From assembly GCF_021560035.1 (NCBI RefSeq), contig NZ_CP074373.1, positions 554,001-618,000 of the forward strand: a stretch of 64,000 nucleotides of DNA, given 5' to 3'. The notes under the pieces were generated by a model that worked only from the letters and a program-made list of their open reading frames with translations, was not told where the DNA came from and ran no database searches. Positions 3,085-63,756 of this stretch are shown one piece after another; within the stretch, counting starts at the first letter, position 1; each line of letters opens with the position of its first letter. The position numbers and the translations under genes are program-made. Source of the DNA: Virgibacillus sp. NKC19-16. GTDB taxonomy: Bacteria > Bacillota > Bacilli > Bacillales > Amphibacillaceae.

Positions 3085-3225
3085 ATAGTGAGAGCACAAC
3101 GTGCAAAACCGGGAGATCCGAGCGTCAAATCGGGAGAGCGCGACACTAAATCGGGAGAGAACTCCTGGAAACCGGGAGAGCGCGACACCAATTCGGGAGA
3201 GCACAACACCAAACCGAAAGAAACA
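3085..3225. repeat. 21-bp-period array 1 (CGGGAGAG units, about 7)
   Basis: CGGGAG or a degenerate form starts at 3089, 3110, 3131, 3152, 3173, 3194 and 3215, exactly 21 bp apart. Units read roughly AAACCGGGAGAG plus a variable 9-base part often containing CGACACC. All reading frames are open through it because 21 is a multiple of three, but no ribosome site or known protein is associated, so I treat it as non-coding. It lies between the yulF terminator and csbB. See also 13070, 50145 and 62475. Confidence 0.9.
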
Positions 3226-13069: not shown

Positions 13070-13315
13070 GCTCGAGCGGGGAGTGTCTCAGGTCGAGCGA
13101 GAGGTAGCTCAACTCGAGCGAGAAGAGTATCAACTCAAGCGAGAGCGCAGTCCTCGCTCGGGCAGGAGTAGTTGTCGCTCGAATGAACCCAGTCCCCGCT
13201 CGAGTAGGAGTATCTGTTGCACGAGTGAGCCCTCTTCTCGCTCGAGTGATCGCGAACTTTTCCCGGTCGAGCACCAAGTTGATGAACTCGAGCGACAGCC
13301 CGTCCCCCGCTCGAA
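13070..13315. repeat. 21-bp-period array 2 (TCGAGCGAGA units, orientation switches)
   Basis: TCGAGCG-type cores start at 13072, 13093, 13114 and 13135 in one orientation. The inverted core CGCTCG then starts at 13155, 13176, 13197, 13218 (degenerate) and 13239. Forward cores return at 13267 and 13288, and an inverted one at 13308. Spacing within each block is exactly 21 bp. The inverted blocks could pair with the forward ones in RNA. It lies in the convergent gap between the gnd terminator and the 3' end of the ROK gene. Confidence 0.9.
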
Positions 13316-13348
13316 TAGTAGAACTCCTGTCCTTCTACAGGCTAAAAC

Positions 13349-50144: not shown

Positions 50145-50370
50145 CGAAATCGGGAGAGAAGTACATCAAACCGGGAGGGAGGTTCATGTAATCGGGAGAA
50201 AAGCGTCTCGAACCGGGAGAGAGACAGGGGGAACCGGGAGACAGCGCTTCGAAATCGGGAGAGAGGCAGGCGGAACCGGGAGACAGCAGCTCCAAAATCC
50301 GACAACATCCGAAAATTGGTAGACCTTACCTCCAATTCGAGAGAGAACCCCGCCAAATCGGGAATGACTA
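50145..50370. repeat. 21-bp-period array 3 (CGGGAGAG units, about 8-10)
   Basis: CGGGAG starts at 50151, 50172, 50193, 50214, 50235, 50256 and 50277, exactly 21 bp apart. There is a degenerate unit at 50298 and two more at 50338 and 50359 after a small phase slip. Units alternate between AAATCGGGAGA and AACCGGGAGA starts, with a variable remainder. The core is the same as in array 1 (3085), 47 kb away. It lies between the GPH terminator and ureA, in a 780-bp gene-free region that also holds the unplaced urease promoter. Confidence 0.9.
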
Positions 50371-61581: not shown

Positions 61582-62412
61582 ATGAATTTCCCATCACGAG
61601 TAATCACCATTGCAGGTTCAGCAGCTGGTGGAAGCGCTGGGATTCAAGCAGATTTGAAGACGTTTCAGGAACTTGATGTTTATGGGATGAGTGTCGTAAC
61701 AGCCATCGTTGGTAGACATCCAGAGACGGATAAAAATGTGCATCCGCAGACGCTGGAAGCCATTGAAGCGCAATTTGCTACAGCAATGAAACAGGTAGGT
61801 GCGGACGGGCTTAAAACAGGGATGTTATTTTCAAAAGAAGTAATAGAAACCGTTGCTGCATTAATCAAGGATTCTTCGATTAAAAATATTACTGTCGACC
61901 CTGTCATGATTGGGAAACTGGATTCCAAACTTTTGAGGGATGATGCGATTGATGCATTAATAAATAGCCTGATCCCGAGGGCCACGATTATTACGCCAAA
62001 TGTACCGGAAGCTTCCTTATTATTGGGTGGAAGAGATTTGGCTAGTGTCGATGATCTGAAGCGTGCAGCGATAGATCTATATGCCTTAGGTGCAGATAAT
62101 GTATTGGTAAAAGGGGGCAGATTAGAAGGCCCGGCAATTGATGTATTGTACGATGGGGAGACGATCTCGACGTTCGAAGCGCCACGTATTGATACAGTTA
62201 ACACGAGTGGGGCAGGGTGTACGTATTCGGCAGCAATTGCAGGAAATTTAGCCAAGGGCGAACCTATCGCAGAAGCAGTTCGACTGGCAAAGAGTTTTGT
62301 TACAACCGCGATTGAGCATGGATTTTCGTATACAGATGTTGTAGGCCCGACGTATCATGCAGCGATGCGTAGGTTTGATGAAGCACATAAGATTAAGGTT
62401 AGCAAAGAATAA
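61582..62412 (+). CDS. pdxK: Pyridoxine/pyridoxal (or HMP) kinase, Bacillus PdxK/ThiD type
   Basis: A 276-residue ribokinase-fold kinase. TIAGSAAGGSAGIQADLKTF, KTGMLFSKEVIE, VDPVMIGK, TPNVPEASLLLG and the anion-hole TVNTSGAGCTYSAAIAGNLA are conserved. The GAGCT active-site form and the C-terminal VVGPTYHAAMRR follow Bacillus PdxK, which salvages pyridoxine, rather than classic ThiD (GTGCT). HMP kinase activity remains possible. Ribosome site AAAAAGGAAGG. Confidence 0.85.
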   Translation: MNFPSRVITIAGSAAGGSAGIQADLKTFQELDVYGMSVVTAIVGRHPETDKNVHPQTLEAIEAQFATAMKQVGADGLKTGMLFSKEVIETVAALIKDSSIKNITVDPVMIGKLDSKLLRDDAIDALINSLIPRATIITPNVPEASLLLGGRDLASVDDLKRAAIDLYALGADNVLVKGGRLEGPAIDVLYDGETISTFEAPRIDTVNTSGAGCTYSAAIAGNLAKGEPIAEAVRLAKSFVTTAIEHGFSYTDVVGPTYHAAMRRFDEAHKIKVSKE

Positions 62413-62421
62413 GGATGATCT

Positions 62422-62455
62422 AGCACCAGATGAGCGGGGGCAGTGTTCCTGTTCC
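62422..62455. repeat. Dispersed AGCACCAG repeat, partial copy a
   Basis: AGCACCAGATGAGCGGG followed by GGCAGTGTTCCTGTTCC. It matches the second half of the copies at 63057 and 63691 and forms the left flank of the 27-unit array. Confidence 0.65.
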
Positions 62456-62474
62456 ATTTTGTATCACGAAGGTG

Positions 62475-63041
62475 CAAACCGATCGAGAGCCGAAGCAAAC
62501 CGATCGAGAGCCGAAGCAAACCGATCGAGAGCCGAAGCAAACCGATCGAGAGCCGAAGCAAACCGATCGAGAGCCGAAGCAAACCGATCGAGAGCCGAAG
62601 CAAACCGATCGAGAGCCGAAGCAAACCGATCGAGAGCCGAAGCAAACCGATCGAGAGCCGAAGCAAACCGATCGAGAGCCGAAGCAAACCGATCGAGAGC
62701 CGAAGCAAACCGATCGAGAGCCGAAGCAAACCGATCGAGAGCCGAAGCAAACCGATCGAGAGCCGAAGCAAACCGATCGAGAGCCGAAGCAAACCGATCG
62801 AGAGCCGAAGCAAACCGATCGAGAGCCGAAGCAAACCGATCGAGAGCCGAAGCAAACCGATCGAGAGCCGAAGCAAACCGATCGAGAGCCGAAGCAAACC
62901 GATCGAGAGCCGAAGCAAACCGATCGAGAGCCGAAGCAAACCGATCGAGAGCCGAAGCAAACCGATCGAGAGCCGAAGCAAACCGATCGAGAGCCGAAGC
63001 AAACCGATCGAGAGCCGAAGCAAACCGATCGAGAGCCGAAG
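62475..63041. repeat. 21-bp tandem array 4, 27 units
   Basis: The unit CAAACCGATCG-AGAGCCGAAG repeats 27 times. CGATCG occurs from 62480 to 63026 in steps of 21, and I saw no difference between units. Five long overlapping ORFs cross it in both directions only because 21 is divisible by three and the unit has no stop in those frames. It is bracketed by two copies of the AGCACCAG repeat and lies between pdxK and pncA, both on the plus strand. Confidence 0.96.
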
Positions 63042-63056
63042 CAACGAGGGGAAAAG

Positions 63057-63110
63057 GGACAGGTTCACCGTCCCAGCACCAGACGAGCGGAGACAGTGTC
63101 CCTGTCTCCA
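63057..63110. repeat. Dispersed GGGACAGG/AGCACCAG repeat, copy b
   Basis: GGGACAGGTTCACCGTCCC forms a hairpin, then AGCACCAGACGAGCGGAG and ACAGTGTCCCTGTCTCC form a second one. It lies on the right side of the 27-unit array, 30 bp before pncA. Confidence 0.75.
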
Positions 63111-63139: not shown

Positions 63140-63691
63140 ATGGGGAAGCGTGCATTACTGAATGTGGATTACACAAATGATTTTGTAGCAGAGGATGGAA
63201 AGCTGACAAGTGGGGGACCTGGGCAGGCGATTGAATCCAGGGTAGTGGATTTGACTAGGGAGTTTATTGAAGGGGGCGATTATGTTGTGTTTGCTATTGA
63301 TGCCCATGAAGAAGGAGACGAACTACATCCGGAATCTGATTTATTTCCACCGCATAATATTATCGGTACGCCAGGTCGCGATTTGTATGGAGAGCTGGCA
63401 AATGTGTACGAGGAAAACAAGGATAAAGCGAATGTCTATTATTTTGACAAAACACGGTATAGCGCATTTGCCGGCACTGACTTGGAGATAAAATTACGTG
63501 AGCGAGGAATTGATGAGGTTCATATCATAGGCGTGGTTACAGATATATGTGTACTGCATACAGCCGTGGATGCATACAACAAAGGTTTTAAAATTGTGGT
63601 ACATAAAGATGCGGTAGCAAGCTTCAATCAGGCAGGCCATGATTGGGCATTGGGACATTTTACGGACACATTGGGTGCGAGAGTTTTATAG
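63140..63691 (+). CDS. pncA: Nicotinamidase-type cysteine hydrolase
   Basis: A 183-residue isochorismatase-fold hydrolase that would convert nicotinamide to nicotinate. The catalytic triad is visible: Asp in LNVDYTNDFVAEDG, Lys in YFDKTRYSAFAGTDL and Cys in VVTDICVLHTAVDAY. The metal site includes AIDAHEEGDELHPESDLFPPH. Start ATG with AAGGAGG. Nicotinate adenine dinucleotide is also the substrate of LarB, so NAD salvage supplies the pincer cofactor as well (inference). Confidence 0.88.
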   Translation: MGKRALLNVDYTNDFVAEDGKLTSGGPGQAIESRVVDLTREFIEGGDYVVFAIDAHEEGDELHPESDLFPPHNIIGTPGRDLYGELANVYEENKDKANVYYFDKTRYSAFAGTDLEIKLRERGIDEVHIIGVVTDICVLHTAVDAYNKGFKIVVHKDAVASFNQAGHDWALGHFTDTLGARVL

Positions 63692-63756
63692 GGACAGGTT
63701 CCTTGTCCCAGCACCAGTTGAAAGGGGACGGTGTTCCTGTCGTCCTCCGTCCCTCT
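63691..63756. repeat. Dispersed GGGACAGG/AGCACCAG repeat, copy c
   Basis: GGGACAGGTTCCTTGTCCC (hairpin), AGCACCAGTTGAAAGG, then GGACGGTGTTCCTGTCGTCC (second hairpin). It begins at the last base of the pncA stop and may act as its transcription end. Confidence 0.75.

Follow-up and report, generated by a model that had tools for sequence, protein, structure and literature searches.

The DNA analyzed here (the window) is a stretch of 64,000 nucleotides from Virgibacillus sp. NKC19-16. In it, a pdxK/thiD-like kinase gene (61582..62412, + strand; PF08543, exceeding the TIGR00097 cut-off) is separated by a homogeneous tandem array from a gene for an isochorismatase-family hydrolase (63140..63691, + strand; PF00857), which is pncA-like and was named pncA in the original prediction. 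The array consists of 27 exact tandem copies of the 21-bp unit CAAACCGATCGAGAGCCGAAG at 62475–63041. The period-21 run as a whole, defined by TRF, unit matching and core alignment, covers 62474..63044 on the + strand (571 bp, 27.19 copies) and has the leading-strand orientation. TRF gave 100% matches, no indels, a score of 1142 and 27.2 copies, and a 19-mer of the unit, with up to three mismatches allowed, matched 27 times in the window versus 0.02 times expected from shuffles. Hence the 27 units between pdxK and pncA that had been called apparently identical are exactly so. The exact unit was found nowhere else in the 3.83-Mb genome of this strain (G000; 16-mer, ≤2 mismatches), nor was the unit found in 40 relatives (≤1 mismatch). 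By the pdxK protein, the nearest named relatives belong to Virgibacillus, Oceanobacillus, Paucisalibacillus and Lentibacillus.

Another repeat surrounds the array. It is a two-hairpin-like element of ∼55 bp (AGCACCAG...), present as a partial copy without its left half at 62422..62455, as a complete copy (GGGACAGGTTCACCGTCCCAGCACCAG...) at 63056..63109, and as a third copy 3' of pncA at 63691..63745, all on the + strand. These three, all around pncA, are its only close matches in the genome. The original prediction of a separate dispersed repeat with two copies flanking the array was thus right about the flanking copies, though the left one is partial, and the word dispersed is too strong. Growth of the array inside this repeat, also proposed, is possible, and deletion between flanking copies in an array-free sister species fits equally well.

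We compared the pdxK–pncA gap among relatives. In one sister species (G001), this interval contains the unit GAAACGCTCGAATGCCGAAGC in 11.3 copies that are 99% identical. In another (G002), it is 94 bp long, has no array and includes a single copy of the flanking element. Copy number at the site across the species is therefore 27, 11 and 0, figures that rest on one assembly per species. Ungapped, the G000 and G001 units are identical at 16 of 21 positions and differ at five; rotated shuffles gave a mean of 10.4 identities and a maximum of 16 in 5000. The left border TTTTGTATCACGAAGGT (62454..62473, + strand) is partly kept at the left border of the G001 array (ATTACGAAGGTGCAAA), with ATYACGAAGGTGCAAA common to both. 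Flanking genes are 83–87% identical in DNA between the species, a divergence of 13–17%, versus 0% within the 27-copy array. The lack of any difference in 571 bp, compared with 5 of 21 between the species' units, indicates that, well after the species had separated, each array was homogenized or else expanded from one or two units. These data bear out the earlier suggestion of very recent expansion or homogenization. They show that the arrays at this site were homogenized separately in the two sister species after their split, to different units, which is concerted evolution. A period-21 signal was also evident at the pdxK–pncA site of two Lentibacillus species (lag-21 identity 0.45 and 0.38, with none of 200 shuffles as high) and was marginal in a third. 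Near the pdxK homologue of Bacillus methanolicus and Robertmurraya siralis lie arrays of 52-bp period with a related unit (CTTATTCGGACTGAA...; L106:5173–5286 and L108:5201–5905), seemingly of a different repeat class.

Besides the 27-copy array, the G000 genome contains at least 29 older arrays of the same architecture, in which a 12-bp core, RAAHCG-nnn-GAG, and a 9-bp near-random spacer recur with a period of 21. The core AAHCGGGAGAG was matched 105 times in this genome versus 4 for the reversed control, and similar comparisons gave 69 versus 1 in G001 and 41 versus 1 in G002. Neighboring cores were 21 bp apart in 146 pairs, 20 bp in 10 and 22 bp in 2. Information content was mostly 1.5–1.8 bits at core positions and ∼0.05 at mid-spacer; units were collected by core similarity (≤2 mismatches), which inflates the absolute core conservation and leaves the spacing of 21 bp and the orientation unaffected. 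Spacer identity was 0.38–0.40 within arrays (0.38 for adjacent units) versus 0.34 between arrays. This small difference indicates that spacers are close to saturated, while the core and its spacing persist.

Two of the aged arrays lie in the window, at 3106..3216 and 50147..50299 (both + strand; TRF and core alignment). Both have the core triplet GGA and a period of 21, and the second has a 42-bp higher order. The original prediction set the 27-copy array apart from these degenerate arrays (placed at 3085 and 50145), a contrast that misses their kinship. They share its 21-bp period, core frame and orientation, and so appear to be arrays of this kind at a more advanced age. A further 21-bp-period array in the window, at 13071–13320, has another core type (AACTCGAGCGAGA...), and its second part is reversed; this inverted pair is an exception to the rule of a single orientation.

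In the core frame, the 27-copy unit reads AAACCG-ATC-GAG plus the 9-bp spacer AGCCGAAGC, and the G001 unit reads GAAACG-CTC-GAA. Aged units with ATC cores were seen in G001, ∼2.6 kb beyond the homologous array. The ATC triplet is a minor one, off the class consensus of GGA, and the spacer of the 27-copy array is as homogeneous as the core. For these reasons, the 27-copy array by itself gives no sign of selection on the core.

The arrays turn over. Orthologous arrays in G000, G001 and G002 differ in copy number, and at some sites an array present in one species is missing from another. For example, G001 has a 15.5-copy array of 42-bp units (2 × 21; L166:13452–14101) that are ∼85% alike, and the ∼850-bp stretch holding it is absent from the orthologous site in G000. 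Unit identities across arrays are graded (100%, 99%, ∼85%, 60–80%). Together, the copy-number differences, the filled and empty sites and the graded identities form an age series of birth, ageing and loss.

To see how the arrays lie with respect to replication, we assigned replichores from GC skew, which changes sign between 1.76 and 1.93 Mb in G000. Of 30 mapped GGA arrays, 29 are on the leading strand, as are 99 of 105 individual AAHCGGGAGAG cores. Part of this bias is expected, since composition alone places permuted cores on the leading strand at a fraction of 0.69–0.71 (∼0.7). Flanking genes, 41 of 60 of which are on the leading strand, predict 0.68, against which 29 of 30 arrays gives P ∼1e-4. 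Moreover, no more than 39 of the 60 flanking genes run in the same direction as their array, the settings being tandem-sense (12), convergent (9), divergent (6) and tandem-antisense (3). A complete Lentibacillus genome with TGC cores (G415), its replichores likewise assigned from GC skew, provided an independent check: 44 of 46 cores are on the leading strand. In G310, 37 of 38 TGC cores are on one strand, in positive-skew stretches. Since array direction is that of the leading strand in nearly every case, regardless of the flanking genes, a reader of these sites should be connected with the replication fork or with a process that tracks along DNA in an oriented way, not with transcription of the neighbors.

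Arrays are sparse near the skew switch of G000 and form their densest cluster at 3.13–3.19 Mb, where the neighbors checked are unrelated metabolic, regulatory and transport genes. Dense clusters of about ten arrays in 30–60 kb occur at 3.12–3.20 Mb in G000 (L181–L183) and at 3.11–3.15 Mb in G002 (L184–L185), amid a mixture of genes that includes capsule synthesis, response regulators, alkaline phosphatase and transporters. Cores are unevenly split between the chromosome arms; counted by strand, the numbers are 31/74 in G000, 18/51 in G001, 13/28 in G002 and 3/43 in G415. Rpn-like PD-(D/E)XK nucleases were considered as a linked protein and rejected: both strong matches of G000 (G000:C1:3137081–3137806 and 3181571–3182179) fall within the densest cluster, but such a location is not shared by two of the three in G002 or by the sole strong match in G415.

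We then searched 397 genomes of the order for a pattern of two units at an exact 21-bp period, leaving the triplet free. It was found in 18, mostly as lone matches outside the family. The genomes with multiple matches have other core triplets, namely TGC (G310, where a homogeneous 7-unit array is included), GGC (G003), AGC (G330) and ATA (G241). The extended profile is alike in the GGA and TGC lineages: pyrimidines ahead of the core, R-A-A, A/C/T, CG, the triplet, GAG and A. At the third core position, G000, G310 and G415 frequently have A, C or T and almost never G; in GGA-core lineages, G here would create AGCGG, the Chi sequence of B. subtilis. TRF also detected intergenic arrays of 20–21 bp with other unit sequences at the relatives' loci in many species. 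Among 2.9 million viral contigs, nearly all of those with the pattern had single matches, which by our own estimate is chance level. No published description of such arrays was found in the literature searched, which covered the field in part and few subscription journals, and this is weak evidence of novelty.

The main rival to a functional reading is that the arrays are neutral minisatellites, unselected products of slippage or unequal exchange that owe their common orientation to base skew and to slippage that differs between strands, no protein being bound. Perfect identity and copy numbers of 27, 11 and 0 are just what slippage yields; the age series, with unit identity falling from 100% to ∼60%, fits as well; and purine-rich motifs are leading-biased anyway, as the permuted cores attest. 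Yet cores and 21-bp spacing persist in ∼30 arrays whose spacers are saturated, several genera have a common core frame in which the triplet alone is swapped, and a common period of 20–21 bp in many species is unexpected of random slippage. Taken alone, the 27-copy array is accounted for by the neutral reading; the aged arrays are not, and for the class we consider that reading rather unlikely.

An action at the level of RNA or coding, with the array transcribed together with pdxK and pncA and working as mRNA, small RNA or repeat peptide, is improbable. Long open frames do run through the array, and a six-unit RNA gives a better fold than its shuffles do (z = -3.8) via CGAUCG pairing. But neither the sister unit nor GGA cores have the palindrome, nothing in the window matched Rfam at the gathering score, and array direction tracks replication rather than flanking genes, several arrays being convergent, divergent or antisense to these. 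We discarded a repeat peptide, for a unit of 21 nt, or 7 codons, without a stop gives such open frames trivially, and took two sub-threshold eukaryotic Rfam matches to be chance.

That the array is cargo of the AGCACCAG element or grew within it, the element having mobilized it, is more doubtful still. The element does have partial and complete copies on either side of the array, and array-free G002 retains one copy between pdxK and pncA. The G001 array, however, lacks complete flanking copies, and other arrays of the class lack the element, given its confinement to the surroundings of pncA.

CGATCG, and with it GATC, is present in all 27 units, as originally described; the array accounts for 27 of the window's 273 GATC sites. 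A density of 27 sites in 571 bp could suggest a cluster for methylation or SeqA/Dam-like binding, and the genome encodes one D12-class adenine methyltransferase. This enzyme, however, reaches 60 bits where the Dam-family cut-off is 115, the homologous G001 unit has no GATC, and neither do the cores of GGA arrays. The weight earlier placed on GATC is not supported, since the middle triplet that creates it varies between lineages. GATC is incidental, and we regard this explanation as highly improbable. Equally hard to credit is an assembly artefact in copy number or identity: arrays of 570 bp are beyond short-read resolution, but the 3.83-Mb assembly is a single contig, 99.77% complete, and independent homogeneous arrays are present in G001 (same site) and in G310 (another site).

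Several known systems resemble the arrays in part. Like bacterial VNTR or minisatellite loci, the 27-copy array is intergenic and head-to-tail, with near-identical units (27 exact, 100%) and a copy number that differs between relatives; unlike them, it is one of dozens that share period, core frame and replication orientation, with a 20–21-bp period across genera. Plasmid iterons, the direct repeats bound by Rep, are also ∼20–22 bp long and two helical turns apart, a spacing at which bound protein is expected on one face. The arrays, however, occupy at least 30 scattered chromosomal intergenic sites, with no adjacent rep gene or origin seen among the neighbors checked in the densest cluster. 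Chi sites are likewise oriented with the leading strand, and the third core position nearly lacks G, but the arrays differ in being arrays, intergenic and endowed with a lineage-specific triplet. Eukaryotic satellite DNA shares their concerted evolution, homogeneous within a locus and different between sister species, whereas the present arrays are bacterial, intergenic and hundreds of bases long, and keep a conserved core when aged. CRISPR was rejected on repeat layout: its identical repeats, accompanied by cas genes, alternate with unique spacers of ∼30 bp, whereas the 27-copy array has no spacers of this kind and aged arrays consist of 12-bp cores and 9-bp gaps. KOPS and SRS, the orienting sequences of FtsK and SpoIIIE, are short, purine-rich and strongly leading-biased like the cores, KOPS by >90% near dif and SRS by up to 85% (PMC5357621). 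They are single 8-mers rather than 12-bp cores in phased arrays, and the arrays of G000, densest at 3.13–3.19 Mb, show no KOPS-like rise in density toward the terminus/dif. GAGAAGGG is separately present, 9 to 1 on the leading strand in the sample.

Homogenization after speciation, a class-wide 21-bp period, the contrast between core and spacer, leading-strand polarity and triplet differences between lineages are all observed. We consider it moderately likely that the 27-copy array is the most recent addition to a genus- and family-wide set of intergenic 21-bp-period arrays, which are helically phased, replication-oriented sites in a cycle of birth, ageing and loss and are probably bound by a putative protein. 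An array would grow by slipped-strand replication or unequal recombination within it. With age, spacers would drift to randomness while the core and its 21-bp spacing are retained, and the end stage may be loss by deletion, as in the array-free sister. Selection on core and phase would act through binding on one helical face: ∼3–10 cores, two helical turns apart on the same face of the helix, could be bound cooperatively by a putative sequence-specific protein. Such a protein would have changed its middle-triplet specificity between lineages, and the reader of the sites may be associated with the fork or with oriented tracking along DNA. With its ATC triplet, the 27-copy array may be either a second specificity class or one amplified outside current selection.

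Bacterial chromosomes are already known to contain short, oriented motifs that serve in segregation and repair. Arrays in their dozens, helically phased, constant in period, oriented with the leading strand and differing between lineages in their recognition triplet, point to an undescribed DNA-reading system. More tentatively, in a proposal that is plausible though on balance doubtful, halophilic Bacillales may have an undescribed class of chromosomal element, phased 21-bp arrays read replication-wise by a putative protein whose lineage-changed triplet specificity would drive array birth and turnover genome-wide; the 27-copy array would then have been sampled shortly after its birth. This array and its sister counterpart constitute a natural experiment in array birth and homogenization, and a ready bait for the protein.
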